Source: an uncultured Oscillospiraceae bacterium (GTDB lineage: Bacteria; Bacillota; Clostridia; Oscillospirales; Oscillospiraceae). Taken from it: a stretch of DNA of 59,561 nucleotides. The DNA lies in assembly GCA_947589545.1 (NCBI GenBank), contig CANQBA010000018.1:1-59561 (forward strand), written 5' to 3'. Of the stretch, positions 14,161 through 31,691 are shown piece by piece. How positions within the stretch are numbered: the first letter of the stretch is position 1; each line of letters opens with the position of its first letter. The translations under genes and the position numbers were made by a program. A model generated the notes under the pieces. That model did not search any database and was not told where the DNA came from. It was given only the letters and a program-made list of their open reading frames with translations.

Positions 14161-14355
14161 TGTCAAAAAAACTCAAATTCAATATTTTTCCCGATGACAT
14201 GTGCGTCGGGAAAAATCCCTTTTGTCACGCAAGTGTGCCGCTTTGCGGTGCGCGCGGCGTGACGGCAGGGCAATTTTTTCTGAATTTCGCAAAATTCAGA
14301 GAAAATTGCCCACATGTTCCCTTTGTCGGAAAAGCCCCTCAGGGCTTTTTCGACA
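14161..14355 (+). repeat. copy A of a ~195-bp four-hairpin dispersed repeat
   Basis: The ends are inverted: TGTCAAAAAA at the left and TTTTTCGACA at the right. Inside are four hairpins: TTTTTCCCGATGAC/GTGCGTCGGGAAAAA; GTCACGC..GCGTGAC with a nested stem; CAATTTTTTCTGAATTT/AAATTCAGAGAAAATTG; and a terminal AAAAGCCC/GGGCTTTT hairpin. Full relatives lie at 17542-17721 (opposite strand) and 31497-31691. It contains no gene. The 320-bp gap between the NUDIX-NimA gene and the rhomboid-like gene is filled by this element, its bracketing hairpins and a partial copy. Confidence 0.88.
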
Positions 14356-14392
14356 GTCTAAACGCCCCGCAAACGCGGGGCGTCATTCCTTT

Positions 14393-14437
14393 TTGTTCCC
14401 TCTTGCCGGAAAAACCCGTCCGGGCTTTTTCAACAGC
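14393..14437 (+). repeat. partial copy (right end only) of the four-hairpin repeat
   Basis: The segment matches the last ~45 bp of copy A, including TGTTCCCT, CCGGAAAAA and the GCCCG..CGGGC hairpin followed by TTTTTCAACAG. It abuts the stop of the minus-strand rhomboid-like gene and can act as its terminator. Confidence 0.75.
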
Positions 14438-14438
14438 C

Positions 14439-15320
14439 TCACTCCGTATGGTGGATGTGGGTGTTGATATGGTCGGCGCAGTAGCAGTGGTAGCCCTGAC
14501 AGCGGGAGCAGTAGCGGAACTCCAGATCGGGGTCGGAGACATCGGTCCGTCCGCAGACCTCGCACTTATGGCGGTAGCCGTGCATACGCTCCTCATTTTT
14601 GGCCTGGTGGATGGCGGAGTTGAACTGGGAGCGGCGCTTGGAGTAGCCCCGGTCGCGCTTGAAATTCAGATCCAGATTGCCCCAGCAGAAGAGGAAGAAG
14701 TTGAGGATCGCCACCACGGGCAGGAGATTCATGGGGAAGCTGCCCATGCCCCGGAGGATGGACAGGAGGAAGAACGCCGCATCCAGCCACGCCATCCACT
14801 TCATCTTCACGGGGATGAAGAAGAACAGGAGCACTTGGGCGTCGGGCCAGATGGAGGCGAAGGCGAAGAACATGCTGAGATTCAGATACGAGGCGTTCAT
14901 GGAGAAGCCCACGAAGTCCCCGGCCACCGGCCCCATGGAGGGGAGCAGGATCAGATAGATGACGACGCCGTAGACCACGTTGAACAGGATGCCGCTGAGG
15001 TAGTAGATGGTGAAGCGCGCCGTGCCCCACTGCCGCTCCAGGCTTGAGCCGATGAAATAGTAGAAGTAGAGGGCCACGATCTCAAAAAAGATGTTGTCCC
15101 CGATGGGCATGAGCAGGAAGGTGAAGATCCGCCACACCTGCCCGCGCAGGATCATGGCGGGGTTGAAGGTGATGTAGGACATCAGCGAGCCTGTGGTATC
15201 CATCATGTAGAAGACATAGAAGATCCCGCTGGCGGCCACAAGATACAGCATCAGATTGCGGATGCCGAAGTTGGGGTGCTTATAGCAGAATTTTGTTACG
15301 GCGCGGTCAATGGCCTTCAC
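14439..15320 (-). CDS. rhomboid-like multi-pass membrane protein with C-terminal zinc ribbon, probably not a protease
   Basis: 293 residues with about six membrane segments between residues 20 and 215, in a rhomboid-like arrangement (WRIFTFLLMP, FYYFIGSSLERQWGTARFTIYYL). Where active rhomboids have GxSG this protein has GFSMNAS, and no histidine is seen in the last membrane helix, so catalysis is doubtful. The tail (residues 240-293) carries a cysteine/histidine cluster CEVCGRTD...YCSRCQGYHCYCADHINTHIHH, a likely zinc ribbon. GTG start at 15320 follows GCGAGGTGAG. The function is unknown; a membrane chaperone or pseudoprotease role is inference. Confidence 0.82.
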   Translation of the reverse strand: MKAIDRAVTKFCYKHPNFGIRNLMLYLVAASGIFYVFYMMDTTGSLMSYITFNPAMILRGQVWRIFTFLLMPIGDNIFFEIVALYFYYFIGSSLERQWGTARFTIYYLSGILFNVVYGVVIYLILLPSMGPVAGDFVGFSMNASYLNLSMFFAFASIWPDAQVLLFFFIPVKMKWMAWLDAAFFLLSILRGMGSFPMNLLPVVAILNFFLFCWGNLDLNFKRDRGYSKRRSQFNSAIHQAKNEERMHGYRHKCEVCGRTDVSDPDLEFRYCSRCQGYHCYCADHINTHIHHTE

Positions 15321-15352
15321 CCGGACTCACCTCGCGGATAAATTTTAACTTT

Positions 15353-15381
15353 ATTATATCCCTCTTTTGCCCAAAAGTCCA
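15353..15381 (-). promoter_or_regulatory. promoter of the rhomboid-like gene
   Basis: On the minus strand TGGACT (15376-15381) and a perfect TATAAT (15353-15358) are spaced 17 bp, about 33 bp before the GTG start. Confidence 0.65.
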
Positions 15382-15573
15382 TAGGGTAATGGGAAACATT
15401 TCATGAACTTCCCGCCCACAGGGACGGGAAAAGGGCGGCTTAGACGGATTTTTTATGCGAAACGCGAAAAAAAGGAAAAATTAAGGCAAAAAATTTAAAA
15501 AGGATATGGCTTTATCCGCCGATTTGTGTTACAATATAGTAGATTAACTATGACTATGACCGGGAGGAACCAT

Positions 15574-16734
15574 ATGGCGAGCAGAATATTTACCTCGGAA
15601 TCGGTGACGGAGGGCCATCCGGACAAGATCTGTGACCAGATCTCCGACGCCGTTCTGGACTATATACTGGAAAACGACCCTACGGCCCATGTGGCCTGCG
15701 AGACCGTCTGCACCACGGGGATGGTGCTGGTGATGGGGGAGATCACCACCGAATGTTACGCGGATATTCCCGCCATCGCCCGGCAGACCATCCGCCGGAT
15801 CGGCTACGACAAGCCGGAGTACGGGTTCGACTGCAACTCCTGTGCGGTGCTGACCAGCATCGACGAGCAGTCGCCGGATATCGCCCGGGGCGTCAACTCC
15901 GCCTACGACGACGCCGGCGACGAGGGAGCCGGGGATCAGGGCATGATGTTCGGCTACGCCTGCGACGAGACGCCGGAGCTGATGCCCGCGCCCATCTCCC
16001 TGGCCCACAAGCTGTCCCGGCGGCTGGCTCAGGCGCGCAAGAGCGGGGAGCTGCCCTTCCTGCGGCCCGACGGCAAGACCCAGGTGACGGTGAAATACGA
16101 TGACGACGGGCGCGTGGCCTGCTGTCCCGCCATCGTCGTCTCCTCCCAGCACGCGCCGGAGATCGAAACCGGCCGTCTCCGGGAGGCCATCGTGGACGCG
16201 GTCATCAAGCCCGTGATCCCGGAAAAATACATCACCCGGGACACGAAGATCTACGTCAATCCCACGGGCAGGTTCGTCATCGGCGGGCCGGTGGGGGATT
16301 CGGGCCTTACCGGGCGCAAGATCATCGTGGATACCTACGGCGGTGTGGGCGGACACGGCGGCGGGTGCTTCTCCGGCAAGGATCCCAGCAAGGTGGACAG
16401 ATCCGGGGCGTATATGGCCCGGTACATCGCCAAGAACATCGTTGGCGCCGGCCTTGCCCGCAGATGCCAGATCGAGATCGCCTACGCCATCGGCGTGGCG
16501 AAGCCCGTCAGCGTCCACATCGACACCATGGGCACCGGCGTCCTTGAGGACGAGAAGCTGGCCGGGATCGTCCAGGAGCTTTTCGATATGCGCCCGGCTA
16601 AGATCATCTCCCGCCTGGGCCTCCTAGCCCCCATCTACCTGCCTACGGCGGCCTACGGCCACTTTGGCAGAACGGACGTGGCGCTTCCCTGGGAGAAGCT
16701 GGATATGGTGGACGCGCTGAGGGAGCGGAAATGA
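15574..16734 (+). CDS. metK: S-adenosylmethionine synthetase
   Basis: 386-residue MetK that makes S-adenosylmethionine from methionine and ATP. The motifs [12 protein letters not shown] and [19 protein letters not shown] are intact, as is the N-terminal [19 protein letters not shown] 15574 follows GGGAGG at 15562-15567; upstream in-frame codons to 15526 give an unlikely extension. A -10 TACAAT (15530-15535) lies about 40 bp upstream with a weak -35. I see no S-box or other SAM riboswitch in the 250-bp upstream gap. The stop overlaps the rlmB start (ATGA), so a SAM-dependent methyltransferase directly follows its cofactor enzyme. Confidence 0.97.
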
Positions 16735-17558
16735 CGGACAACAGGAAAAGCCCCTTCAGGGATCATAAAAGACCCCCGTCTCAGGCGGCCGGGGAGAACC
16801 GGGAGCCGGAGCGGGAGGAGAGCTGTCTGGAGGGCCGGAACGCCGTCGGTGAGGCGCTGAAGGCCGGCAGGACGCTGAACAAGGTCTTTATCGCCGCCGG
16901 GGACACCGACATGGGTCTCAAGCGGCTGGCCGCCCAGGCCCGGGACGCCGGGGCAGTGGTGGTGGAGGTGGATCGGCGCAAGCTGGACTCCATGAGCGTC
17001 ACGGGGGCGCACCAGGGCATTGTGGCGCTGGCCGCCGTCAAGGACTACTGCTCGATCCGGGACATCCTGGCCTACGCCGGGGAGCGGGGCGAGGCGCCGC
17101 TGATCGTCCTGTGCGACGAGGTCACCGACGGGCGCAATTTGGGGGCCATCATCCGCACCGCCGAGTGCGTGGGCGCCCACGGGGTGATCATCCCCAAGCG
17201 GCGCAGCGCGTCCCTGACGGCGGTGGTGTCCAAGACCTCCGCCGGAGCGGTGGAATATATGCGCGTGGCGCGGGTGCCCAACCTGACCGCCGCCATCAAA
17301 GAGCTTCAGGACGCCGGGGTGTGGATCTACGGCACCGCGGCGGACGCGGAAAAGAGCCTTTACGAGACGGATCTCCGGGGCCCCATGGCGCTGGTCATCG
17401 GCTCCGAGGGGGATGGCATGAGGAAGCTGGTGGGAGAGAGCTGCGACTTCACCCTGTCCATCCCCATGAAGGGACACATCTCCTCCCTGAACGCCTCCGC
17501 CAGCGCGGCCATCGTGCTGTACGAGGCGGCGCGGCAGAGGATGTCCGAAAAGCCCTGA
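16731..17558 (+). CDS. rlmB: 23S rRNA (guanosine-2'-O-)-methyltransferase, TrmH/SpoU family (RlmB-like)
   Basis: 275-residue SPOUT-class RNA ribose methyltransferase. An N-terminal charged extension (residues 1-32) precedes the substrate-binding domain ([11 protein letters not shown]) and the trefoil-knot domain with [35 protein letters not shown] and [15 protein letters not shown]. The likely target is G2251-equivalent of 23S rRNA. It overlaps metK by four bases. The last residues (SEKP) and the stop codon lie within repeat copy B, whose end hairpin CCGAAAAGCCC-TGA-CGGGCTTTT provides the TGA. Confidence 0.93.
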
Positions 17559-17721
17559 CGGGCTTTTCACAGGGGGAACGTGCGGGCAAAATTTTTGAAT
17601 TTTGCGAAATTCAGAAATTTTGTCCTGCTGTCACGCTGCGCGCACCGCAAAGCGGCACACTTGCGTGACAAAAGGGATTTTTTCCGACGCGCATGTCGCC
17701 GGAAAAAATATTAAATTGACA
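17542..17721 (-). repeat. copy B of the four-hairpin repeat, overlapping the rlmB stop
   Basis: Reverse-oriented relative of copies A and C. From left to right: GAAAAGCCCTGACGGGCTTTT hairpin; CAAAATTTTTGAATTT/AAATTCAGAAATTTTG hairpin; GTCACGCTGCGCGCACCGC/GCGG...TTGCGTGAC hairpin; and TTTTTTCCGACGC/GTCGCCGGAAAAAA hairpin. The right end lacks about 12 bp next to its TTGACA. It overlaps the last 17 bp of rlmB and fills the gap before the next gene. Confidence 0.87.
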
Positions 17722-17786
17722 GACTGTCATAAAAGTTGCGATACCTCTTTAGAGACTGCAAACCCGGCGATGAGGAGGGTTCAAGC

Positions 17787-20417
17787 ATGGCAAATGACAA
17801 AAATTTTTGGGACGATCTTGACCTGTCGGGGGACTACGGCGCGGAGGAGGGCTTCTCTCTGGAGTCCATTCTGGCCGAGTACAAGGGCAACGCCTTTTTG
17901 GACGGGGACAAAAAGACCCCGGCGGAGGAGCTGCAGCGCAAGACCGACGACATCCTGAGGGAGGTGCTGGGGGAGAGCGCTCCGGCGGCCTCCGTTCCCG
18001 CGCGCCCGGAGGAGCCGGAAAAACAGGAAAAGAGCGCCCCGGAGCCTGTGACCGGCGATCGGCCTGTGACCGACGACGATATCCGTCGGCTCTTTGATTC
18101 CCCCGCCTTTGAGAGCTTGAACCGCTCCACGGGCGGATCCGGGCCGGCAGAGCCCATAGCGCCCGGGCCGGAGCCCTCCGCCCGGGAGGAGATCCCGCCG
18201 GTTGACCGGGAGCCTGAGGAGCCCGAACCCGAGCCGGAAAAGCCCCGCCGGGGCCTGTTCCGCCGGAAGAAGGCCAAGGATCGGCCCACGCCGGAGCCGG
18301 AGGCGGAGGAGTCACGCCGGGAGGCCGCGCCGCGCCGGGAATACGGCGAGACGGCGGCGGAGCCGGCCTATGAGACGCCGCCGGAGATCGACCTGTCCGC
18401 TTTTGAGGAACCGGAGCCCACAAGGCGGGAGGGCATTGAGAAATTTATCGACTCCCTGGGCGGAGCCGGTTTTGACACGCCCGTGCGGGACAGCGAGGCC
18501 GGCGCGGGCTATGCCGAACGGGGCGCGGAGGAGATCCGCGACCTGGAGGCGGAGCCGGAGGAGGACGACGGGGAGCCGGCGGACTTCGACGGGGAGGAAG
18601 AGCCCATAGAGGAGAGGCCCCGCCGCGGGCTTTTCGGACGGCGCGCCGGGAGAGAGAACGCCCGCGCCGCCCTGCCGGAGGATCGGGAGGATCCCTTCGG
18701 GGACGAGCCCCCGGAGGAGGATCTGGAGGACGGGGAAGAAGAGGAAGAGGAATATTACGACATCGAGCCGGATCCCGACTTCAAGCGGACGGCCATGAAA
18801 TATGCCGCCCGGGTGCCGTCTCTGCGGTTCAGGCTTCTGGGCCTCTTCGTCCTGTCGGTGCTGATGGTCCTGACCACCTGGCTTTTCTCCACGGGCCACG
18901 CCATGCCCCTTCTGGGCCATACCTGGAAGGCCAACACCGCCGCCCTGCTCATCATGGAGCTTCTGGCCGCCGCCCTGGGGATGGATGTTTTGACCCGGGG
19001 CTTCCAGGACATCCTGACCCTCCAGCCGGGGGCAGAGTCGCTGGTGTTCGTCTCAACGCTGATGTCGGTGATGGACGGCTTCGTGATGCTGGTCACCGGT
19101 AATTATGAGCGGGGACTGCCTATGGCTGTGCTGTCCGTCATCTCCCTGATGGCGGCCGTCAGCGCCAGAAAATCCATGTACATGGCCTACTGCGACAGCC
19201 TGCGCGGCGCCAGGGCCTCCTCCAACATCTCCGGCGTCGCCTCCGACGCCGACGGGATGGAGGGCCGGCGGGTGCTGAAGAAGGTGTCCGGGGAGACCTT
19301 CGGCTTCTATACCAAGCTCACCAGCCCCGATTTCGCCGAACGGTTTTACGACGATCTGGCGCCGCTTCTGGTGATCGTCTCCTTTGTGATGGCGTTCCTG
19401 TCCACCGTGGGACACGGCAACGCCGGCGGCTTTGCCCACACATTTTCTATCATGACCGCCGTGTGCGCGGCCTTCCCGGCCACGGTGCTGTTCGCCCTGC
19501 CCTTCAAATACGCCGCCGCCGCGGTGAAGCGCTCCGGCGGGGCCCTGGCGGGCTGGGTGGGGGCCCAGGATATCTATGATTCCGACGGCGCGCTGATCAC
19601 CGATCTCGACGTGTTCCCCGTGGGCAGCGTCAAGCTGGACGGGGTGAAGGTGTTCGAGGGCGTTGACCAGCAGAAGGCCCTTTCCGCCGCCGCGTCGGTG
19701 ATCATCACCTCGGATTCCGGCCTCCGGCGGGTCTTTGAGGAGCTTTTGAAGAATCAGAACCTGGCCCGCCGCCGGGTGGACGATTTCGCCTGCTATGACG
19801 GCGGCGGCATCGGCGGATTGGTGGACGGCCAGCGGGTGCTGGTGGGTACCGGGGCCTTCATGAGCCTGATGGGCCTGCGGGTGCCGGACGCCATGAACGC
19901 CTCCGGCAACGTGTTTACCGCCATCAACGACGAGCTTACGTGCTTCTTCACCCTGTCCTATGTGCCCGCCAGCTCCGTGCAGTCCGCCCTTGTTGCCCTG
20001 CTTGGCACCAGGACGAATATCCTGATGGCGGTGCGTGACTTCAATGTGACGCCCAATACCATCACCCAGCGGTTCAAGGTGTCTATGGACGGGGTGGAGT
20101 ATCTGCCCATCGAAACTACCTACGCCCTGAGCCAGAACGAGCTCCCGGAGGGCAGCGGCGTCTCCGCCGTCCTGTGCCGGGGGGGCCTGGCCCCCTTCGC
20201 GGAGGTCATCACCCGGGGCCGGCTCCTGAGGACGGCCACCCTGCTCAATACGGCCATCACCTGCGCCGGGACGGCCATCGGCGCCGTGGTCATGTTCTAC
20301 CTGTGCTGGGCCGGGGCCTTCGCCGCCGCCAGCGCCCTGAATCTCCTGTTCTACATGTCCCTGGTGGGCGCGTTTGTTTACATAATGAGCCAGATCGTGA
20401 AAAAAAGGATCAAGTGA
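17787..20417 (+). CDS. P1B-type-ATPase-like pseudoenzyme with a long acidic cytosolic N-terminus
   Basis: 876 residues. Residues 1-335 are Glu/Pro-rich and probably disordered, with two similar GLFRRKK / GLFGRR patches. Residues about 345-600 carry membrane helices in P1B-ATPase order, followed by a soluble part with GGGIGGLVDGQRVLVGTGAFM, which resembles the nucleotide-binding domain of heavy-metal P-type ATPases, then two final helices. The catalytic DKTGT is replaced by D606-L-D-V-F, the membrane CPC by C560-AAFPA, and no GDGINDAP motif is present. It therefore should not pump by the usual cycle. GAGGAGGGT precedes ATG 17787. The actual role is unknown. Confidence 0.78.
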   Translation: MANDKNFWDDLDLSGDYGAEEGFSLESILAEYKGNAFLDGDKKTPAEELQRKTDDILREVLGESAPAASVPARPEEPEKQEKSAPEPVTGDRPVTDDDIRRLFDSPAFESLNRSTGGSGPAEPIAPGPEPSAREEIPPVDREPEEPEPEPEKPRRGLFRRKKAKDRPTPEPEAEESRREAAPRREYGETAAEPAYETPPEIDLSAFEEPEPTRREGIEKFIDSLGGAGFDTPVRDSEAGAGYAERGAEEIRDLEAEPEEDDGEPADFDGEEEPIEERPRRGLFGRRAGRENARAALPEDREDPFGDEPPEEDLEDGEEEEEEYYDIEPDPDFKRTAMKYAARVPSLRFRLLGLFVLSVLMVLTTWLFSTGHAMPLLGHTWKANTAALLIMELLAAALGMDVLTRGFQDILTLQPGAESLVFVSTLMSVMDGFVMLVTGNYERGLPMAVLSVISLMAAVSARKSMYMAYCDSLRGARASSNISGVASDADGMEGRRVLKKVSGETFGFYTKLTSPDFAERFYDDLAPLLVIVSFVMAFLSTVGHGNAGGFAHTFSIMTAVCAAFPATVLFALPFKYAAAAVKRSGGALAGWVGAQDIYDSDGALITDLDVFPVGSVKLDGVKVFEGVDQQKALSAAASVIITSDSGLRRVFEELLKNQNLARRRVDDFACYDGGGIGGLVDGQRVLVGTGAFMSLMGLRVPDAMNASGNVFTAINDELTCFFTLSYVPASSVQSALVALLGTRTNILMAVRDFNVTPNTITQRFKVSMDGVEYLPIETTYALSQNELPEGSGVSAVLCRGGLAPFAEVITRGRLLRTATLLNTAITCAGTAIGAVVMFYLCWAGAFAAASALNLLFYMSLVGAFVYIMSQIVKKRIK

Positions 20418-20471
20418 CCGGCTCCGGGGCGGGACTTGAGAGAAAAATCCCCAAAAAACAGAAAATAAATG

Positions 20472-20500
20472 TTGTCAATTCAGTCAATCTGTATTATAAT
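20472..20500 (+). promoter_or_regulatory. strong sigma-A promoter of the EF-G-like gene
   Basis: TTGTCA (20472-20477), 17-bp spacer, perfect TATAAT (20495-20500). The predicted start near 20507 leaves a leader of about 250 nt before the ATG at 20758. Confidence 0.8.
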
Positions 20501-20506
20501 GAATCT

Positions 20507-20757
20507 TCAGATGGGCTTATACTAATGTCTAATTAAAATAAGACATTCTCGCCGGTCCTTTTCGCGCCATGCCGCGTCAGCCGCCTTGAGAATACATACA
20601 GTATTCCCTGCGGCGCCTTCCTTGCCTGACACGAAAAATCCTCGGCGCTCTGTGTCTCTTTTAAATAGACATTCGTATTCATTGCCGATAATGTGACTCA
20701 AGGCGGCCCCCGCCGCCCTGAGCCGCTCAACTAAATTTACGAGAGGATCATACATCT
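20507..20757 (+). promoter_or_regulatory. long structured 5' leader of the EF-G-like gene
   Basis: No gene is visible in this ~250-nt leader. It holds an AATGTCT/AGACATT hairpin (20523-20546), a GAATAC/GTATTC hairpin (20589-20605), and a GC-rich hairpin CTCAAGGCGGC/GCCGCCCTGAG (20697-20707 with 20712-20722) just before the start. The left arm of the last hairpin is also perfectly complementary to CCGCCTTGAG at 20581-20590, so two structures exclude each other. This suggests attenuation or translational control; it is a prediction. Confidence 0.5.
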
Positions 20758-22785
20758 ATGGGCTACGCTGCTGAAAAAATTCGCAACATCGCGCTCCTTG
20801 GCCACGGCGGGAGCGGCAAGACCACCCTGGCGGAGAGCATGCTCTTCATCGCCGGGGCCGTGACGAGACAGGGAACCGTCGGCGCGGGCAACACCGTCTC
20901 CGACTACGACGCGGAGGAGATCCGCCGCCAGACCAGTATCTCCGCCACCACCATGTTCGCGGAGTTCAAGGGCTATAAGCTCAACATCATCGACACCCCG
21001 GGCTACTTCGACTTTGTGGGCGAGGTGTTCGAGGCCCTGCGGGTGGCCGACACCGCCGTCATCTGCGTCTCCGCCAAGGATCAGATGAACGTGGGCGCCG
21101 AGAAGGCGTGGAAGTATGTGAACGAAAGAAGCCTGCCCCGCGCCATCTATATCTCCAAGGTGGACGAGGAGCACGCCAATTTTGAGAAGGCCTTCGACAC
21201 TCTGCGCAACGCCTTCGGCGCCTCCGTCTGCGCCCTGACCGAGCCCATTATGGAGGGCGAGAAGGTCGTGGGCATCGTGGACGTCCTGAAGAAGAAGGCC
21301 TATAAATTCGTCTCCGGCAAGCGCCAGGAGGTGCCCATGCCCGCGGAGCTTTCCGGCAAGGTGGAGGAGCACTACTCAGAGCTTGTGGAGAACGCCGCCG
21401 GCACCAGCGAGGAGCTGATGGAGAAGTATTTCGAGGAGGGCGACCTCTCCGAGAGCGAGCTTTTCAACGCCCTGGGCATCGGCATCGCCGAGGGGGAGAT
21501 CTGCCCCGTGTTCTTCGGCAGCGCCGCCACCGGCCTTGGCACCGAGGTCTTCATGGACAGCGTGTGCAACCTGTTCCCGGCTCCCCGTGAGGCGGGCAAG
21601 CCCGTGGACGGCTCCGCCCCCACAAAGCTCATCGTCTACAAGACCATCTCCGACCAGTTCGGCAAGTTCAGCCTCTTCAAGGTCGTCTCCGGCAAGGTCT
21701 CCGCCGATATGACCCTGACCAACGCCCGCAGCGGTGCCCAGGAGAAGCTGGGCCACATCTACACCATGCGCGGCAAGCAGAACATCGAGGTGACTGATCT
21801 CTGCCCCGGCGACATCGGCGCCGTCTCCAAGCTCACCGACACCCGCACCGGCGACACGCTGTGCGATCCCAGGGCGGTGGAGGCCGTCCCCGGCATCGAC
21901 TTCCCGGCGCCCTGCTACTCTATGGCCATCCGTCCCAAGACCAAGGGCCAGGAGGACAAGGTGGCCCAGGGCCTGGCCCGTCTCAGGGACGAGGATGTGA
22001 CCTTCACCGTTGCCAACAACGCCGAGACCCGCCAGATGGTCATCTCCGGCGCCGGCGATATGCAGCTTGACGTGCTGTGCTCCAAGCTGAAGAACAAATT
22101 CGGCGTGGACGTGGAGCTGGAGCCCGCCAAGGTGCCCTACCGCGAGAAGATCCGCAAAAAGATCGAGGCCCACGGCCGCCACAAGAAGCAGTCCGGCGGT
22201 CATGGCCAGTTCGGCGACGTGTGGATCCGCTTCGAGCCCCAGGACGAGAGCGAGGAGATGATCTTCGGCGAGGAGGTTTTCGGCGGCGCTGTCCCCAAGA
22301 ACTTCTTCCCCGCCGTGGAGAAGGGCCTGCGGGAGTCCGTGGGACGCGGCGTCCTGGCCGGATATCCCATGGTTTATCTGAAGGCCACCCTCTATGACGG
22401 CTCCTATCACCCCGTGGACTCCTCCGAAATGGCCTTCAAGACCGCCGCCAACCTGGCCTTCAAGGAGCTGGTCAACGCCAGCCCCGCCCTTCTGGAGCCC
22501 ATCGGCCTTCTGAAGGTGACCATCCCCGACGCCAACATGGGCGACATCATGTCTGACCTCTCCAAGCGCCGCGGCAGCCCCATGGGCATGAGCGTCCAGG
22601 ACGGTATGCAGGTGGTGGAGGCCGAGGTACCCATGGCTGAAATGGGCTCCTACGCCATCGACCTGCGCAGTATGACCCAGGGCCGCGGCTCCTTCACCTT
22701 TGAGTTCGTCCGCTACGACGAGGCCCCGCTGAATGTCCAGCAGAAGGTTATCGAGGAGGCCAAGGCCGCCGCTGACGACGAATAA
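20758..22785 (+). CDS. elongation factor G-like translational GTPase (EF-G2 type)
   Basis: 675-residue GTPase with the five-domain EF-G architecture. The G1 loop is GHGGSGKT instead of the canonical AHIDAGKT, G3 is DTPGYFDF, and G4 is SKVD instead of NKxD, all typical of the second, EF-G-like paralogue rather than housekeeping FusA. Domain IV (GRHKKQSGGHGQFGDVWI) and the C-terminal domain V are complete. Such paralogues are implicated in translocation or recycling under special conditions, but their exact role is not settled. GAGAGGATC precedes ATG 20758. Monocistronic, with its own strong promoter and a terminator at 22802. Confidence 0.92.
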   Translation: MGYAAEKIRNIALLGHGGSGKTTLAESMLFIAGAVTRQGTVGAGNTVSDYDAEEIRRQTSISATTMFAEFKGYKLNIIDTPGYFDFVGEVFEALRVADTAVICVSAKDQMNVGAEKAWKYVNERSLPRAIYISKVDEEHANFEKAFDTLRNAFGASVCALTEPIMEGEKVVGIVDVLKKKAYKFVSGKRQEVPMPAELSGKVEEHYSELVENAAGTSEELMEKYFEEGDLSESELFNALGIGIAEGEICPVFFGSAATGLGTEVFMDSVCNLFPAPREAGKPVDGSAPTKLIVYKTISDQFGKFSLFKVVSGKVSADMTLTNARSGAQEKLGHIYTMRGKQNIEVTDLCPGDIGAVSKLTDTRTGDTLCDPRAVEAVPGIDFPAPCYSMAIRPKTKGQEDKVAQGLARLRDEDVTFTVANNAETRQMVISGAGDMQLDVLCSKLKNKFGVDVELEPAKVPYREKIRKKIEAHGRHKKQSGGHGQFGDVWIRFEPQDESEEMIFGEEVFGGAVPKNFFPAVEKGLRESVGRGVLAGYPMVYLKATLYDGSYHPVDSSEMAFKTAANLAFKELVNASPALLEPIGLLKVTIPDANMGDIMSDLSKRRGSPMGMSVQDGMQVVEAEVPMAEMGSYAIDLRSMTQGRGSFTFEFVRYDEAPLNVQQKVIEEAKAAADDE

Positions 22786-22801
22786 GCCCCTGTAATACGC
22801 T

Positions 22802-22825
22802 TCCGCCCGGAGTCCTCCGGGCGGA
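22802..22825 (+). terminator. intrinsic terminator after the EF-G-like gene
   Basis: Perfect 10-bp hairpin TCCGCCCGGA/TCCGGGCGGA followed by TTTTC. Confidence 0.85.
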
Positions 22826-22883
22826 TTTTCATGAAAAAGACAGTCAACAGTTCAAGAATGAAACGGCAAAGCGGGGTGTGGGT

Positions 22884-23627: not shown

Positions 23628-23639
23628 AATAACACGGGC

Positions 23640-23664
23640 CTCCTCCCGCCCCGGGCGGGGGAGG
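23640..23664. other. GC-rich hairpin between the Spo0A-like and GH13 genes
   Basis: A CTCCTCCCGCCC/GGGCGGGGGAG stem sits about 20 bp before the GH13 ATG and ahead of its TAGGAGG ribosome binding site. No T-run follows, so it is not a classical terminator; it could stabilise the downstream message. Confidence 0.5.
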
Positions 23665-23684
23665 ATCCGATAGGAGGAAACGAT

Positions 23685-24992: not shown

Positions 24993-25741
24993 AGGAGAGC
25001 GGGGAAGGACGCGTGGCCGGGTACGGCCAGGCAAGCGGGCTCTTTCTGCGGGGATTCCAAATCGACTGGAGCCGGATCCTGGAGGGGGACTATCTGCGGG
25101 AGATCGAGACGGTGCGGAAGCTGGACAGACTTCTCTTCCACAAGCCCGTCACCGTCTTCACCGGGGAGAACGGCACCGGCAAGTCCACGATCCTGGAGGC
25201 CATCGCTGTGGCCGCCGGGTTCAACCCGGAGGGCGGTTCCCGGAATTACCGCTTTTCCACCTACGATTCCCACTCCGGCTTGTGCGACGCCATACGGCTC
25301 ATACGGGGGAGCCGCCGGGAGGTGTGGGGGTATTTTCTCCGGGCCGAGAGCTTCTACAACGTGGCCACCAAGGAGACGGACTATGCAAGGCCCGGGGACG
25401 AGCTTCTGCACGAGAAGTCCCACGGGGAGAGCTTCCTCTCGGTGGTGCAGAGGTTCATTGAGCCCAACGGGCTGTACCTGCTGGACGAACCGGAGGCCGC
25501 CCTGTCCCCGCAGATGCAGCTGACGGTGCTGGCGGAGATCTGCGCCTGCGCCGAAAGAGGCGCGCAGTTCCTCATCGCCACCCACTCGCCGATCCTGCTG
25601 GGGATCCCGGACGCGGAGATCCTGTCCTTCGACGGGGGAGAGATCCACCCCTGCGCCTACGAGGACACCCAGGTCTATCAGATCGTGAAGCTGTTCGTCA
25701 CGGACAGAAGAAGGATCCTGAAAAATCTGCTGGAGGAATAA
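24989..25741 (+). CDS. ABC/AAA-type ATP-binding protein (AAA_21-like)
   Basis: 250-residue soluble ATPase resembling SMC/OLD-like ABC ATPases without a membrane partner. It has Walker A GENGTGKST (about residues 54-62), a signature-like stretch KSHGESFLSVVQRF, Walker B GLYLLDEPEAALSP and a switch histidine in FLIATHSPILLG. It overlaps the GH13 gene by four bases. Stand-alone proteins of this type are common in Firmicutes and mostly uncharacterised; a defence or DNA-related role is sometimes suggested, but nothing here proves it. Confidence 0.88.
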   Translation: MKESGEGRVAGYGQASGLFLRGFQIDWSRILEGDYLREIETVRKLDRLLFHKPVTVFTGENGTGKSTILEAIAVAAGFNPEGGSRNYRFSTYDSHSGLCDAIRLIRGSRREVWGYFLRAESFYNVATKETDYARPGDELLHEKSHGESFLSVVQRFIEPNGLYLLDEPEAALSPQMQLTVLAEICACAERGAQFLIATHSPILLGIPDAEILSFDGGEIHPCAYEDTQVYQIVKLFVTDRRRILKNLLEE

Positions 25742-25749
25742 GGGCAAAA

Positions 25750-25781
25750 AAGGATGGCGCGGCCTCGGCCGCGCCATCCTT
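25750..25781. terminator. bidirectional terminator between the ATPase gene and asd
   Basis: A perfect 15-bp stem AAGGATGGCGCGGCC/GGCCGCGCCATCCTT with a two-base core, with A-rich sequence on the left and CAATTTT on the right, serves both converging genes. Confidence 0.85.
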
Positions 25782-25801
25782 CAATTTTATGAGGTATTCG
25801 A

Positions 25802-26884
25802 TCAGTCCATATACCCCTGGGCGCAGAGGAGCTCCGCCAGGAGAATAGCTCCGCCGGCGGCCCCGCGCAGGGTGTTGTGGGAGAGGCAGACAAATTTGTA
25901 GTCGTACTGGGTGTCCTCCCTGAGACGGCCCACGCTGACGGCCATGCCGTTTTCCAGATTCCGGTCCAGCTTTGTCTGGGGCCGGTTCTCCTCCTCGAAG
26001 TAGTGGATGAACTGTTTGGGGGCGGAGGGGAGGGCCAGGGCCTGGGGCAGGGCGGAGAAGGAGGCCCAGCGCGCTTTGATCTCCTCCACGGTGGGCTTTT
26101 TGGCGAAGCTGGCGAATACGGCGGCCATGTGGCCGTCGGAGCAGGCCACCCGGAAGCACTGGGCGGTGATGGAGGGGCTCTCGGCCTTGACGATCTGTCC
26201 GTTCTCCACACGGCCCCACAGCTTCAGGGGCTCCTGCTCGCTCTTCTCCTCCTCGCCGCCGATGAAGGGGATCACGTTGTCCACAATGTCGGGGAACGTC
26301 TCGAAGGTCTTGCCCGCGCCGGAGATGGCCTGATAGGTGCAGACCAAGGCACGGGTCAGGCCGAATTCGTCCTTTAAGGGATGGAGGGCCGGGACGTAGC
26401 TCTGCAGGGAGCAGTTGGATTTCACGGCGATGAAGCCCCGTTTTGTACCAAGGCGGGCGCGCTGGAAGGGGATGACCTCCAGATGCTCCGGGTTGATCTC
26501 CGGCACCACCATGGGCACGTCGGGGGTCCAGCGGTGGGCGGAGTTGTTGGAGACGACGGGGCACTCCCGCTTGGCGTACGCCTCCTCCAGGGCCTTGATC
26601 TCCTCCTTCTTCATATCCACGGCGGAGAAGACGAAGTCCACGTGGGCGGCAATGGCGTCGATGTCCGTCTCGGCGCACTTGACCACCAGCTTTTTGGCGC
26701 AGTCGGGCACAGGCGCTTGCATGAGCCACCGGCCGCTGACGGCCTCCTCGTAGGGCTTGCCGGCGCTGCGGGCGCTGGCGGCCACCTCCGTGAGCTCAAA
26801 CCAGGGGTGGTTGGCGATCAGCGTCACAAAGCGCTGGCCCACCATGCCCGTGGCGCCGATAACGCCCACCTTGTATTTTTTCAT
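25802..26884 (-). CDS. asd: aspartate-semialdehyde dehydrogenase
   Basis: 360-residue enzyme reducing beta-aspartyl phosphate to aspartate semialdehyde, the branch point for lysine/DAP, threonine and methionine. The N-terminal Rossmann motif GVIGATGMVGQRF and the active-site cysteine C158 in KSNCSLQ mark the archaeal/fungal-type ASADH subfamily, which is also found in many Clostridia. ATG at 26884 follows GGAGGG; the longer in-frame extension to 26926 lacks support. The gene stands alone and is divergent from the SpoIID-like gene. I see no lysine riboswitch in the upstream gap. Confidence 0.95.
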   Translation of the reverse strand: MKKYKVGVIGATGMVGQRFVTLIANHPWFELTEVAASARSAGKPYEEAVSGRWLMQAPVPDCAKKLVVKCAETDIDAIAAHVDFVFSAVDMKKEEIKALEEAYAKRECPVVSNNSAHRWTPDVPMVVPEINPEHLEVIPFQRARLGTKRGFIAVKSNCSLQSYVPALHPLKDEFGLTRALVCTYQAISGAGKTFETFPDIVDNVIPFIGGEEEKSEQEPLKLWGRVENGQIVKAESPSITAQCFRVACSDGHMAAVFASFAKKPTVEEIKARWASFSALPQALALPSAPKQFIHYFEEENRPQTKLDRNLENGMAVSVGRLREDTQYDYKFVCLSHNTLRGAAGGAILLAELLCAQGYMD

Positions 26885-27164
26885 AAAAATTCCCTCCATT
26901 TCCAAGGCTTTGAGAAAAAGAAACAAAATAGTTACAGAAAAACGCGAAAAGGTGTAGCCAAAACGGGAAAGATGTTGTATAATAGGGTTTACATAAGAAT
27001 AGATAACAGTATGCGTTCCGGCTTTTTGTTATGCTAACACAAAACCGGCTTGCCTGTCAACGGCGAATTGACGCAAAATCGGGGCAAATCTACGGCGTTG
27101 GCGTGTTAAATCGCCATTGTGTCCGTGGAAAAAAGTTTGCTTTCCCTGAATTTGGAGGACTCCG

Positions 27165-28898
27165 ATGAGATTTGGAAGAAAAACCGCTCTATTTCTGGCG
27201 CTGGCGCTTTTGCTGGCGGCGGCGCTGATCCCCGCGTCCCCCCGGGCGGAGGCGTCGTACACGCCGCCCTACACCACCGTGCGGATCGGGATCTATACAT
27301 ACAACGGCAGCGGAAGTCCCAGTGAGAAGACCTTCACCTCGTCCAACCTCCAGAACGTGCCGGGCTGCGGCTACGGCTACCGGCTGGGGTACTTTGACGA
27401 GAACAGGAGCTTTGTGGATATCGGCGCCTCCATCACGGACACCGACAAGATCACCGCCACCATGGACAAGAACATGGTCTATGACGCCGGCTCCAGACGG
27501 TATATCCCCCTGGAGGAGGGGAGCGGCGGCGTCGTGCTGGGGTGCTTCCACCTGACGGTGGCCGCGGGCATCGAGGATTTTGCCACAGCCGCCCAGCAGG
27601 CCGCCCAGTACCCGGACGGTTTCGTGCGGTATGAAAACGGCATGTTCATGGTGCTGAAGGGGCAGTATACCTCCTCCGCATCCGCCAGGGACGCCGCCGG
27701 CGCGGAGGGCCTGTCCGTGGACAGCGGCAGTCCCTACACCGTGACGGTGGTGGAGACCGGCACCAACCGGATCCTCTTTGAGTTCGACTGCGGCACGGAA
27801 AAATCCATCGGCATCATGCCCATCGCGCCGGAGGGCGTCAAGGCCCAGACGTACCATAGGGACTGCCAGTATTACGGCGGCTTCTCCTTCCTGCGCAACA
27901 CGGGGGACAAGCTGACCACCGTGAATTATGTGGACGTGGAGGACTACGTCAAGGGCGTCGTCCCCTGGGAGATGAGCGCCAGCTGGCCCCTGGAGGCGTT
28001 GAAGGCCCAGGCCATCACCGCCAGGACGTATCTGATGGCCAATCTCACCAAGCACCGCGCCCTGGGCTTCGACATCTGCAACACCGCCGAGTGCCAGGCC
28101 TATCACGGCAACCAGCGGGCCAACGCCAACTCCGATATGGCCGTGGATCAGACGGCGGGGCAGTATCTGACCTATCAGGGGGCCCTGTGCGAGACGTATT
28201 ATATGTCCTCCGACGGCGGGGCCACGGAAAACAGCGAGAACGTGTGGACGGAGGCAATCCCCTATCTGCGGGGCGTCGCCGACCCCTACGAGAAGAACAT
28301 CGAGAGCATCCCCTCCCAGTACCGTTACACCGTCAGCTATACGCCCTCCCAGCTGGCCCAGAGGCTCCGGGACCGGGGCAGCAACTGCTCGGATATCGCC
28401 TCCATCCGTATGACCTTTACGGAGGTGGGGAACGTGAGGACCATCACCTTCACGGATACCCGGGGCAGGAACTTCACCTTCAGCAAATCGGATACACGCG
28501 GCGTCACCGGCTGCCGCTCCCAGCGGTTCGCCGTCAACGGCCTGGGCCCCGTCCAGAGCGAGGGCTTTTACATCAACGATCAGACCGTGGACTCCCTGGG
28601 CGGCCTCTACGTCTTGGGCGCGGGCGGCGTGGACGTGCTCCCCTCCGGGGATCTCTACGCCATCACCGGCGCGGGGGAGATCGGCAAGGTGGGGGACGGC
28701 GCCGTGGACGCCAACGCCTCCGTGGGGCCCAACGCCTCCGGGAAGTTTGTATTTTCCGGCACCGGCTGGGGCCATAATGTGGGCATGAGCCAGTGGGGCG
28801 CGTACTCCATGGCGCTCAATTACGGAATGACTTGCGAGGAGATCCTGAGCTTTTACTACACCGGCACCCAGGTGACAAGCACAGGCGTGACATATTGA
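27165..28898 (+). CDS. SpoIID/LytB-domain protein, secreted peptidoglycan-acting
   Basis: 577 residues with a Sec signal peptide (residues 1-29, FGRKTALFLALALLLAAALIPA...RAEA). Residues about 35-205 contain two segments resembling SPOR-type glycan binding. The SpoIID domain follows from residue 255: VKGVVPWEMSASWPLEALKAQAITARTYL, with E269 matching the catalytic glutamate of B. subtilis SpoIID, and the C-terminal GWGHNVGMSQWGAYSMA motif. SpoIID is a lytic transglycosylase acting on glycans that lack peptide stems. This longer version may act in spore or vegetative wall remodelling. TTTGGAGG precedes the ATG. A TATAAT at 26978-26983 may start a ~180-nt leader. Confidence 0.9.
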   Translation: MRFGRKTALFLALALLLAAALIPASPRAEASYTPPYTTVRIGIYTYNGSGSPSEKTFTSSNLQNVPGCGYGYRLGYFDENRSFVDIGASITDTDKITATMDKNMVYDAGSRRYIPLEEGSGGVVLGCFHLTVAAGIEDFATAAQQAAQYPDGFVRYENGMFMVLKGQYTSSASARDAAGAEGLSVDSGSPYTVTVVETGTNRILFEFDCGTEKSIGIMPIAPEGVKAQTYHRDCQYYGGFSFLRNTGDKLTTVNYVDVEDYVKGVVPWEMSASWPLEALKAQAITARTYLMANLTKHRALGFDICNTAECQAYHGNQRANANSDMAVDQTAGQYLTYQGALCETYYMSSDGGATENSENVWTEAIPYLRGVADPYEKNIESIPSQYRYTVSYTPSQLAQRLRDRGSNCSDIASIRMTFTEVGNVRTITFTDTRGRNFTFSKSDTRGVTGCRSQRFAVNGLGPVQSEGFYINDQTVDSLGGLYVLGAGGVDVLPSGDLYAITGAGEIGKVGDGAVDANASVGPNASGKFVFSGTGWGHNVGMSQWGAYSMALNYGMTCEEILSFYYTGTQVTSTGVTY

Positions 28899-28901
28899 AC
28901 C

Positions 28902-29957
28902 ATGAAGACTTCGGATTTTTATTATGACCTCCCCCGTGAGCTGATCGCCCAGACGCCCCTGGAAAAGCGGGACGCCTCCCGGCTCATGCTCCTGGATAAA
29001 ACAACAGGGAAGACGGAGCACCGGCATTTTTACGAGCTCCCCGGCCTTCTGCGGGCGGGGGACTGCCTGGTGCTGAACGACTCCCGCGTCCTGCCGGCGC
29101 GGCTGTTCGGACGCCGCCCCACCGGCGGCGCGGTGGAGGTGCTTCTGCTGAACGACAAGGGCGAGCGGTGCTGGGAGTGCCTGGTGCGGCCAGGCAAAAA
29201 GGCCAGGCCCGGGGACCGGCTCATTTTTGGAAACAGTGAGCTGGAGGCCCAGATCCTGGAGGTGCTGGAGGGCGGCAACCGCCTCATCCGCTTTGACTAC
29301 CAGGGCATCTTCCTGGAGACGCTGGAGCGCCTGGGCCGTATGCCCCTGCCGCCCTATATCCACGAGGAGCTCCGCGACGCCGAGCGGTATCAGACCGTGT
29401 ACTCCCGCGAGCCCGGCTCCGCCGCCGCCCCCACGGCGGGCCTCCACTTCACGCCGGAGCTCCTGGACGAGATCCGGGCAAAGGGCGTGGAGACCGCCTT
29501 CGTCACCCTCCATGTGGGTCTGGGTACCTTCCGCCCGGTGAAGGAGGAGAACGTGGAAAGCCACGACATGCACGCGGAATTCTGCGTGATCCCCGAATCC
29601 GCCGCCCAAACCGTCAATGCCGCGAAGGAGCGGGGCGGGCGCGTCGTCTGCGTGGGGACTACGTCCCTGCGGACGGTGGAATCCTTCGCCGACGAGCGCG
29701 GGTTTTTGAAGCCCGCCTCCGGCTGGACGGATATTTTCATCTACCCGGGCTACCGCTTCAAATGCGTGGACGCCCTGATCACCAACTTCCACCTCCCCGA
29801 AAGCACCCTGGTGATGCTCGTCTCCGCCCTTGCCGGCCGGGAGCACATCCTCAACGCCTACGCCGAGGCTGTGCGGGAAAAATACCGCTTTTTCTCCTTC
29901 GGGGATGCGATGTTCATAGCAAGCGGGATCGACGATTCAGTGAAAACAGAAAAATGA
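28902..29957 (+). CDS. queA: tRNA preQ1(34) S-adenosylmethionine ribosyltransferase-isomerase
   Basis: 351-residue QueA, which transfers the ribose of SAM to preQ1-modified tRNA to give epoxyqueuosine. The start [29 protein letters not shown] and the motifs [27 protein letters not shown] and [16 protein letters not shown] are diagnostic. Only 3 bp separate it from the SpoIID-like stop and its own ribosome binding site is poor, so translation is probably coupled. tgt, a common partner, is not next door. A terminator follows at 29964. Confidence 0.96.
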
Positions 29958-29963
29958 GTTAAC

Positions 29964-29994
29964 CAGCGGGGCAAGGGAATTCCTTACCCCGCTG
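29964..29994 (+). terminator. intrinsic terminator after queA
   Basis: CAGCGGGG-AAGG / CCTT-CCCCGCTG stem-loop followed by TTTGTT. Confidence 0.85.
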
Positions 29995-30019
29995 TTTGTT
30001 AAGATATAAACACATTATA

Positions 30020-30047
30020 TTGACATCCGGGTATAATGTGATATAAT
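30020..30047 (+). promoter_or_regulatory. promoter of the RelB/YafQ module
   Basis: A perfect TTGACA (30020-30025) and a perfect TATAAT (30042-30047), 16-bp spacer, 29 bp before the antitoxin ATG. The overlapping AT-rich repeats around the -10 may be the autoregulatory operator, as is usual for RelB. Confidence 0.75.
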
Positions 30048-30076
30048 ATAATAAATGAGGCAAGGAGGGATAAGAC

Positions 30077-30343
30077 ATGGCAAAGGTTTCGACAAGCATT
30101 TCTGTTGATGCCGATGTAAAGGCAAAAGCGCAGGAGCTGTTTGCGGAATTCGGGATGGATCTGTCCACGGCCGTCAATGTGTTCCTGAAGCAGTCGATTT
30201 ACGAAAGGCGGATCCCCTTTACGATCGGGCGGGATGTCCCGAACGAGACGACGCTGAAGGCCATGGGCGATGCGGAAAATGAAGAGAATATGTTCGGCCC
30301 CTTTGACAGTGCGGCAGATATGATGGAGGCCCTCAATGCTTAA
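30077..30343 (+). CDS. RelB/DinJ-family antitoxin
   Basis: 88-residue protein with the ribbon-helix-helix N-terminus of DinJ/RelB (ISVDADVKAKAQELFAEFGMDLSTAVNVFLKQ) and a C-terminal tail that should wrap the toxin. It precedes and overlaps the toxin gene by 8 bp. AGGAGGGATAAGAC lies upstream of the ATG. It neutralises the toxin and represses its own promoter in known systems. Confidence 0.92.
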   Translation: MAKVSTSISVDADVKAKAQELFAEFGMDLSTAVNVFLKQSIYERRIPFTIGRDVPNETTLKAMGDAENEENMFGPFDSAADMMEALNA

Positions 30344-30614
30344 GCTTGAGTTCTCAAGCCAATTCAAGAGGGACTACAAGCTGGCGGTCAAAAGGGGCTG
30401 CGACCCCAAAAAGCTGGAAGAGGTCGTGAGTATCCTCCAGGCCGAAAAGCCGCTGCCCGAGAAATATCGCGACCATGATTTGACCAATTCCAGAGATTAT
30501 AAGGGTATGCGTGAGCGTCACATCGACCCGGACTGGCTTCTGGTCTACAAGGTGTACCGGGATACGCTTATCCTGAGACTGATTCGAACCGGAAGCCACA
30601 GCGATTTGTTTTAA
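30336..30614 (+). CDS. YafQ-family mRNA interferase toxin
   Basis: 92-residue RelE/YafQ-fold toxin. Residues matching the YafQ active site are present: H47 (RDHDL), H62 (RERHIDPDW), D66, W67 and a C-terminal H88 (TGSHSDLF). YafQ cleaves ribosome-bound mRNA. All key residues are retained, so it should be active. Partner of the RelB-like gene just upstream. Confidence 0.92.
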   Translation: MLKLEFSSQFKRDYKLAVKRGCDPKKLEEVVSILQAEKPLPEKYRDHDLTNSRDYKGMRERHIDPDWLLVYKVYRDTLILRLIRTGSHSDLF

Positions 30615-30691
30615 ATGAATGAACAGGTGCAATTTATTCACTTCGCGGTTCACATGACGAACAGCGACGCGATGTTTATTCAATAGAGCAC

Positions 30692-30724
30692 ATAGACCTT
30701 CAAACAGCCGCTTGGGGGTCTATT
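30692..30724 (+). terminator. intrinsic terminator between the two toxin-antitoxin modules
   Basis: ATAGACC/GGGTCTAT stem around a 17-nt loop followed by a T-run (TTTTTG). It separates the YafQ transcript from the next promoter. Confidence 0.65.
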
Positions 30725-30751
30725 TTTGCACAGAATAAAAGACCGGATCTG

Positions 30752-30780
30752 TTGACAAAATAGGTCTATTCCGCTATAAT
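30752..30780 (+). promoter_or_regulatory. consensus sigma-A promoter of the Phd/PIN module
   Basis: TTGACA (30752-30757), 17-bp spacer, TATAAT (30775-30780): a full consensus match, 39 bp before the antitoxin ATG. Confidence 0.85.
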
Positions 30781-30818
30781 AAAAATGACCGAAATTTGAT
30801 GGGAAAGGGGAAATACCC

Positions 30819-31049
30819 ATGACGCAGATCTCAGTATCCGAGCTGAAGACCAACGCCGGAAAATATGTGACCATGGCGAAGGATCAGGATATCCTGATCA
30901 CGAAAAACGGCAAGGTGGTGGCGAAAATCGTGAGCGCCAAACCGGACAAAAAGGCCGCGTGGAACCATTTGACCGAATTATTTAAGGGAATAAGCTTTTC
31001 CGATGAGGAAGTCGAGGCCATGAGAGAGGAGCGGATCCTCGGAAAATGA
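30819..31049 (+). CDS. Phd/YefM-family antitoxin
   Basis: 76-residue antitoxin with the Phd/YefM N-terminus (ISVSELKTNAGKYVTMAKDQDILITKNGKVVAKIVS) that dimerises and binds DNA, and a charged C-terminal tail. GGGAAAGGGG precedes the ATG. It overlaps the toxin start by four bases (ATGA). Confidence 0.92.
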   Translation: MTQISVSELKTNAGKYVTMAKDQDILITKNGKVVAKIVSAKPDKKAAWNHLTELFKGISFSDEEVEAMREERILGK

Positions 31050-31471
31050 AAGTCGTATTTGACACCAACGTGATCCTCGACGCCGCCATGGGAAGGCCGG
31101 GCTCCGAGGACTCACAAGAGCTTATTATGGCGGTCGTCAATGAGGAGATAGCGGGACTTGTCACGGCCAACACCATCACCGATATCCACTATATCGTGAA
31201 AAAGCGGTGCGGGGACGCCACGGCTAGGGAGGTGGTTCAGAACACCCTGTATATTTTTGACGTTATCCCGGTGGACGGGGAGGCATGCTCCATCGCTCTG
31301 GACGAGCCCATGACCGACTACGAGGACGCCGTCCTGGCCGTCTGCGCCGCCAGGGAGGACGCCGACTATATCGTCACCAGGGATCAGGCGTTCCTGACCG
31401 CCCCCGGCCCCGTCCCGCCCATGACCCCCACGGAGCTTTTGCGCATGATCGGGCCGCCGGACGCGCGGTGA
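31046..31471 (+). CDS. PIN-domain toxin (VapC-like)
   Basis: 141-residue PIN-domain ribonuclease. The opening MKVVFDTNVILDAAM carries the first catalytic aspartate (D6). A mid-protein glutamate and the later DYEDAVLAVCAAREDADYIVTRD supply the further acidic residues of the metal site. VapC toxins cut tRNA or rRNA; the target here is unknown. It pairs with the Phd-like antitoxin and directly follows the RelB/YafQ module. Confidence 0.9.
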   Translation: MKVVFDTNVILDAAMGRPGSEDSQELIMAVVNEEIAGLVTANTITDIHYIVKKRCGDATAREVVQNTLYIFDVIPVDGEACSIALDEPMTDYEDAVLAVCAAREDADYIVTRDQAFLTAPGPVPPMTPTELLRMIGPPDAR

Positions 31472-31496
31472 GAATATGGACGCGGTGACGTTAGAT

Positions 31497-31691
31497 CGTC
31501 AAAAAACTCAAATTCGATATTTTTTCCGGCGACATGTGCGTCGGAAAAAATCCCTTTTGTCACGCAAGTGTGCGGGCCATGCCCGTGCGCGCGGCGGGAC
31601 GGCAGGGAGAAATTACTGAATTTTGCGAAATTCAGTAATTTCTCCCGCACGTTCCCCTTGTCGGAAAAAGCCCGTCCGGGCTTTTTCGACA
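31497..31691 (+). repeat. copy C of the four-hairpin repeat
   Basis: Inverted ends CGTCAAAAAA and TTTTTCGACA. Hairpins: TTTTTTCCGGCGAC/GTCGGAAAAAA (31520-31550); GTCACGC...GCGGGAC with a nested CGGGC/GCCCG stem (31559-31600); a perfect 17-bp GAGAAATTACTGAATTT/AAATTCAGTAATTTCTC (31607-31644); and AAAAAGCCCG/CGGGCTTTTT (31665-31686). It lies between the PIN toxin gene and the fhs promoter and contains no gene. Confidence 0.88.

Follow-up and report, generated by a model that had tools for sequence, protein, structure and literature searches.

A probable IS1182-mobilized miniature element with a conserved multi-hairpin fold in Oscillospiraceae

A non-coding repeat of ~195 nt occurs in three copies on contig CANQBA010000018.1 of an uncultured Oscillospiraceae bacterium (59,561 nt; hereafter the window, whose positions serve as coordinates). 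Judged from sequence comparison, the repeat, which belongs to uncultured gut bacteria, is probably a miniature inverted-repeat transposable element (MITE), that is, a non-autonomous transposable element, which is moved in trans by a DDE transposase of the IS1182 family of insertion sequences (IS) and which has a conserved folded interior. As expected of a MITE, it is short, non-coding and repeated and has defined, if imperfect, inverted ends; target duplications flank it, and orthologous sites are empty in four species for copy 3 and in two for copy 2. Its ends are shared with IS1182 transposons of sister species, as mobilization by this family would predict. An earlier, sequence-only reading of the window had left it open whether the repeat is MITE-like or a structured RNA. 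The question proved not to be an either/or: IS1182-type ends, hairpin repeats, empty sites and copy number support the former, and an excess of G-U pairs and a fold found across the order support the latter.

Copies in the window and in related genomes

The three copies placed by the sequence-only reading at 14161–14355 (+), 17542–17721 (−) and 31497–31691 (+) are all real. With the terminal bases included, copy 1 spans ~14156–14359 and copy 3 ~31492–31695; copy 2 has lost part of its left end. The copies are 82–95 % alike across long matching stretches of 63–103 bases, and each folds better than all 200 of its own shuffles (z −10.5, −7.8 and −9.8 for copies 1, 2 and 3). A right-end fragment reported at 14393–14437 was also found (~14393–14440). 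The inverted ends claimed for the repeat are present but imperfect, the left end being CAGCTTGTCAAAAAAC and the inverted right end AGACTGTCGAAAAAG.

With copy 3 as BLAST query, 80 matches were obtained in the own genome, where a covariance model found 25 places at 88 bits or more. The same query matched 26 of 60 genomes, namely the own genome, 24 of the 33 others of the genus and one of the 26 outside it. A pattern scan of named genomes gave at least 99 stretches; the 80 matches listed all belonged to metagenome-assembled genomes of uncultured Oscillospiraceae. The many copies and the presence in related Oscillospiraceae genomes that had been anticipated were thus found by search. Copy number and covariation (see below) rule out chance similarity. 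Carriage by phages or plasmids was rejected, as searches with copy 3 gave no match.

Element ends are shared with IS1182 transposons

The MITE has no transposase gene, unlike the insertion sequences of the IS1182 family. The own genome contains a degraded IS1182-type element with ends CAGCCTGTCGACAAAC, and a search with its open N-terminal part led to relatives within the genus whose open frames are long. Ten IS regions were fetched and both ends were definable in seven (L202–L208); L201, L209 and L210 gave no end pair. Five of the seven (L204–L208) end in CAGnnTGTCAAAAAA and two (L202, L203) in the CAGnCTGTnGACAAAC (GACAAAC) variant. Over 15 bases, the left end of the MITE matches the right end of L207 without a difference. 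Two transposases were tested, those of L205 and L202, and scored 380.7 and 440 bits against NF033551 (transpos_IS1182, NCBIfam; cut-off 270); the frame of L206 extends beyond the end of its element. By eye, the four-hairpin core of the MITE was not seen in the subterminal sequences of the IS elements. The IS1182 copies L173 and L174 of the own genome, which have ends of the GGGGCTGTGAAAAAA type, are of another lineage.

Insertion at hairpins and empty orthologous sites

The MITE and the IS1182 elements alike insert at stem-loops, most of them terminator-like. A shared flanking repeat (score of at least 12) was detected at 57 of 103 MITE copies, in 46 cases direct and in 11 with an inverted loop; copy 1 is one of the latter. 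Mismatched flank pairs (n=3000) reached the same score in 0.2 % (direct) and 0.4 % (inverted). The 40-mers adjacent to the element had median fold energies of −17.7 and −17.4 kcal/mol, compared with −8.0 and −9.1 kcal/mol at 50–90 bases away. A fold energy of −12 kcal/mol or lower was reached by both flanks in 46 of the 57 repeat-flanked copies, and by at least one flank in 29 of the 46 remaining copies. In a few copies a short repeat lies outside hairpins (e.g. 8 bases at L119). All seven IS elements with defined ends are, by eye, flanked left and right by one and the same hairpin, directly repeated.

Empty orthologous sites, which the sequence-only reading had suggested looking for, do occur. 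The site of copy 3 is uninterrupted in the sister genomes G011, G018, G001 and G014. G011 carries copy 2 at the orthologous position, whereas G018 and G001 lack it; in the G011 copy the stem of the second hairpin (H2) differs from that of the window copy, suggesting that orthologous copies may exchange sequence. The terminator at which copy 1 sits is a lone hairpin without any element in G018; in G011 a remnant of a left end is found there, and in G001 a longer, oppositely oriented element stands between exact repeats of the hairpin. The terminator that follows the gene here has thus been hit repeatedly.

Covariation supports a conserved fold

We extracted 104 unique full-length copies, dropped those more than 95 % alike and aligned the remaining 82. 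RNAalifold recovered from this alignment all four successive hairpins that had been described for each copy (H1–H4), with 57 pairs; an internal loop, conserved between variable stems, splits H2 into two stems. The arm changes listed earlier for the second and third hairpins are present, and pairing is indeed kept while the sequence drifts, since 98.2 % of stem cells were paired vs 86.8 % in column shuffles. Double-changed cells numbered 446 (shuffled: 118), at least one double change occurred in 32 of the 57 pairs, and the covariation score was 0.318 (shuffled: 0.117). None of 500 shuffles reached any of five measures, and sliding the partners abolished the signal. The compensatory swaps include C-G to G-C, which cannot pass via G-U.

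For the phylogenetic expectation we wrote an R-scape-like, tree-aware null, in which the substitutions of each column are kept and re-scattered over the branches; it uses parsimony on one FastTree tree, and copies may recombine. Ten of 19,701 column pairs passed E<0.05, and nine of the ten are predicted base pairs, all in H2 and H3 and none in H1 or H4. The tenth (columns 53/59) consists of two purines of the H1 loop that switch between A..G and G..A. Covariation above phylogenetic expectation was thus found, with our own null in place of the R-scape run that the sequence-only reading had in mind.

The wobble pairs indicate which strand is folded. In the 82 copies, the plus-strand stems contain 370 G-U and 33 A-C cells (88 and 33 outside pairs with more than 30 % G-U); among 158 unique copies the numbers were 750 and 67. 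Some wobbles are standing, such as U-G at columns 94/128 in 80 of the 82 copies and G-U at 50/62 in 76. Because wobbles read from the other strand are A-C mismatches, the folded molecule is the plus strand, as RNA or as one DNA strand, most likely as RNA. The earlier proposal of selection on structure, be it RNA or DNA folded during transposition, is therefore narrowed: the G-U excess and the order-wide fold favour RNA or one specific DNA strand. The part that invoked DNA folding during transposition is not needed, as a DDE transposase does not need folded DNA for this step, and part of the arm covariation is possibly due to template-switching.

Apical loops were seen in inverted form in several hairpins, namely between 14133–14154 and 14362–14383, at 31603–31646 (H3 of copy 3) and, by eye, in some H2 loops. 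They suggest cruciform or template-switch events.

The fold outside the genus

A covariance model of H1–H3, termed R1, matched 29 of 295 genomes of the order at E 1e-5 (19 of 148 genera), 26 of them outside the genus. In a class-level sample, it matched three of 391 genomes at E 1e-6, all in the own family. We inspected 17 of the 26 out-of-genus genomes; hits in the other nine may be false. Removal of three near-duplicates and of eight loci without H1 by anchor reduced 56 out-of-genus loci to 45 unique copies; L360 was dropped as well. H1 is present in these 45 copies, which come from four families, and its loop reads RCATGNR in 43 of them. For the H2 loop, 20 copies have AAGYGT and a further 16 a close variant of it. 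Across H1 and H2, 95 % of cells were paired, with 117 double-change cells (shuffled mean 31, maximum 48; 200 shuffles) and 114 G-U vs 12 A-C cells; several of the 45 copies are close to each other. Many out-of-genus forms have an extra 5′ hairpin that is absent from the window's genus.

A loose IS1182-end pattern was present on both sides of 12 of the 45 copies (misplaced on the right side in L398), all 12 from other genera of the own family, and nine of these 12 have a flanking repeat. One example is L387 (G218), which has a CAGTCTGTCAAAAAAG end and lies between two copies of a hairpin.

Two further locations were noted by eye. In another genus, the fold lies just upstream of an apparent transfer-messenger RNA gene (L393), and in three genomes of another genus it lies between apparently the same two genes (L377, L378, L383).

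The match to a known Rfam family that the sequence-only reading had allowed for did not materialize: at gathering score, Rfam 15 gave none over the standard, longer or out-of-genus forms (short forms were left out) and none in the whole window. In L364, 6S and ssnA hits above threshold adjoin the copy and do not lie over the element. Among the titles and abstract starts listed by searches of the open-licence literature, no title was recognized as describing the element.

Gene context

Gene orientations were taken from a codon-usage caller made for this analysis. Nine of the 103 copies lay too close to a locus end; the other 94 have called genes left and right, and in 77 of these the H4 end is turned towards the 3′ end of a gene, for which, as this arrangement suggests, H4 may act as a terminator. 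The left gene runs towards the element in 52 of the 94 and could read into the plus strand. According to the available part of PMC9208149, IS1182 is found more often than expected between convergent genes, in keeping with a target at gene ends.

In the window, the SpoU methylase gene (16731–17558) takes, in the stretch 17540–17560, its last codons and stop from the right end of copy 2, and its end differs at the empty sister sites. Copy 3 lies ~10 bases upstream of a promoter-like site, TTGACT-17-TAGAAT (31706–31734), which is followed by a formate-tetrahydrofolate ligase gene. In promoter scans, the left end of copy 1 was also overlapped by a match resembling a promoter, with none at that place, on the same strand, in copy 3; this match was not used as evidence. 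The features of the window are listed in Table 1.

Table 1. Element copies, parts of copy 1 and flanking hairpins in the window
Feature	Position	Strand	Remarks
Terminator hairpin, left copy of repeated target, loop GTTT	14133–14154		Single such hairpin without element in sister genome G018
Copy 1, full element, IS1182-type ends	14156–14359	+	
Left terminal repeat CAGCTTGTCAAAAAAA	14156–14171	+	Bases 1–15 identical to the right end of the L207 IS1182 element
Hairpin H1, conserved loop RCATGYR	14184–14216	+	
Hairpin H2, variable outer and inner stems, conserved internal loop AAGYGTG / YGCRYGC between them	14224–14263	+	
Hairpin H3, ~20 bp, covaries strongly	14268–14311	+	
Hairpin H4, terminator-like stem bearing the right terminal repeat	14324–14355	+	
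Terminator hairpin, right copy of repeated target, loop AAAC	14362–14383		Loop inverted relative to left copy
Right-end relic, older copy	14393–14440	+	Family D12
Copy 2, left end partly deleted	17542–17721	−	Copy also present in G011; empty site in G018 and G001
Copy 3, H3 loop inverted (TGCG vs CGCA)	31492–31695	+	Site empty in G011, G018, G001 and G014

Proposed mechanism

We propose that an IS1182 transposase would excise the element by its CAGnnTGTC ends and join it to both feet of a terminator stem-loop, whereupon fill-in repair would duplicate the hairpin. A pathway that duplicates a whole stem-loop is drawn in PMC5678879, which, in the part available, reports replacement for IS1272. 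The outer hairpin would retain its T-tract and H4 would add a terminator-like stem, so that an insertion would barely disturb transcription and copies could pile up. The working form of the fold would be an RNA transcribed from the left end to H4, aiding the element or the host. What the comparisons themselves show is the sharing of ends with IS1182 elements, the insertion at stem-loops, the empty sites and the conservation of the fold.

A short form without H2 and H3 exists at eight places (L036, L039, L040, L041, L055, L061, L110, L127), at different sites, and in six of them the junction falls at the same CCC. If the short form moved as such, H2–H3 would not be needed for movement and the fold would serve spread or tolerance. 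Repeated shortening in place is also possible, given the shared CCC join.

It is conceivable, and we suggest it tentatively, that the element belongs to an undescribed mobile structured-RNA class of one order. Its core, H1 with a RCAUGNR loop and H2 with AAGYGUG/YGCRYGC and variants, would move between terminators within IS1182-type ends in several genera and would occur in other families too, the fold being selected for promoting the spread of the element or its tolerance by the host.

Evidence against and alternative explanations

Several findings weigh against an IS1182-mobilized element with an RNA fold. Among the 103 copies, 32 have flanks without a repeat and 14 a short one only, and no repeated hairpin flanks copy 3. 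The search of the own assembly found IS1182 pieces, none with CAGnnTGTCAAAAAA ends, and one 411-residue frame there (C39, L212) showed no recognizable ends. Outside the own family, the only IS1182-like end seen was a left end at L410 (G217). R1 scores of 25–42 bits were also obtained from the wrong strand of true copies; weak scores are thus unspecific, and we count only out-of-genus copies with inspected sequence. Codirectional neighbours run opposite to the plus strand in 38 cases and with it in 13 (p=0.0006), suggesting that neighbours often do not make the plus RNA. Furthermore, rare variants (at most two of the 158 copies) contain 31 G-U and 36 A-C cells outside G-U-rich pairs, compared with 170 and 30 for commoner variants, so that the preference is seen in variants that spread and not in private ones. 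Counted by variant types, this contrast is weak (24:25 vs 18:7, p=0.08), and the preference is not visible in recent changes.

The hairpins could instead be DNA palindromes only, in which template-switching or cruciform processing keeps the arms complementary and covariation arises without selection or any need for RNA. This would account for the apical loops inverted in 11 of the 57 repeated targets and in H3 of copy 3, which show that DNA palindrome processes do act here, as well as for the many same-step double changes between nearest copies (102 from Watson–Crick to Watson–Crick in 88 copy pairs) and for exchanges of the C-G to G-C kind, to which no G-U intermediate can lead. G-T mismatches, however, would be removed by correction of this sort, and U-G at 94/128 and G-U at 50/62 are kept in 80 and 76 of the 82 copies. 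The one-sided G-U excess, the H2 internal loop conserved between variable stems and the retention of H1–H2 across families also make palindromes alone an unlikely explanation, though one that is still a serious rival. A host-domesticated RNA, either a 3′-untranslated region element or a small RNA that was mobile only in the past, would fit the persistence of orthologous copies (copy 2 in G011; by eye, L377, L378 and L383), the terminator-like H4 and its position towards gene 3′ ends (77 of 94). We regard it as rather improbable, as the flanking repeats are often exact or near-exact and recent stem variants lack a G-U preference; moreover, the high copy number and the sites that differ between species point to spread after the species split. 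Ordinary look-alike intrinsic terminators share the terminator-like stem of H4 and the location at gene ends, but they are a scarcely credible source of a conserved ~195 nt element that has defined ends and is flanked by repeats, and the empty sites refute them. An IS1182-mobilized MITE with a folded interior thus remains the reading that we prefer.

Other repeats in the window

A second structured repeat of ~105 nt, element B, lies at 10058–10160 (−) and 48480–48584 (−) as part of a 246 nt repeat pair (9958–10203 and 48380–48625). Its first window copy gave no Rfam match at gathering score. Element B-like sequence occurs in the H2 apical loop of a longer (~290–300 nt) form of the MITE, reversed in L091. 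Conversely, at L095 (~6011–6460) a full MITE is nested in the hairpin of element B, and this hairpin, of 26 bases, is directly repeated on either side. The window also contains a 261 bp tandem repeat array (10722–11442) in a long repetitive region, possibly a collagen-like gene.

Comparison with known systems

A stem-loop target is common to the MITE and to IS1272, a member of the IS1182 family that targets inverted repeats (PMC5678879, available part), and the MITE has its end sequence in common with the local IS1182 elements. IS1272 replaces the stem-loop without duplication, according to the same part of that paper, whereas the MITE and the local IS1182 elements have a stem-loop on both sides; the hairpin on both sides of seven of seven IS elements and the flanking repeat at 57 of 103 MITE copies do not correspond to replacement of the IS1272 type. 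Candidate structured RNAs of the human microbiome are also palindromic, and many are terminator-like (PMC8040213, available part).

BOX, ERIC and REP/BIME sequences are likewise short, intergenic and palindromic, with many copies near gene ends; the MITE differs from them in its partner IS family, the flanking hairpin repeat and the multi-hairpin fold that covaries on one strand. Group IIC introns are mobile, RNA-bearing and prefer terminator hairpins, as the MITE does here, but the MITE has only ~195 nt, IS1182-type inverted ends and a flanking hairpin repeat. We excluded a group II intron on the grounds of these ends, the flanking repeat and the lack of a group II intron match in Rfam.

MITEs, stem-loop targeting by IS1182 and structured repeats are each already known. 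The combination of hairpin repetition, IS1182-type ends and a one-strand covarying fold across an order was not met in the open-licence literature listings. The element provides a worked case of an IS1182-type insertion after which a complete terminator stem-loop stands on either side; such a pathway was drawn in PMC5678879 and, in the part available, not reported for IS1272. In addition, a mobile element without coding capacity is here tied to a fold that covaries on one strand, is found again across an order of bacteria and lacks a family in Rfam 15. Should the RNA prove real, it would form a new class, whose natural variants number in the hundreds and are already ordered by target site and age; with these it would be testable whether the structure serves the element or the host.

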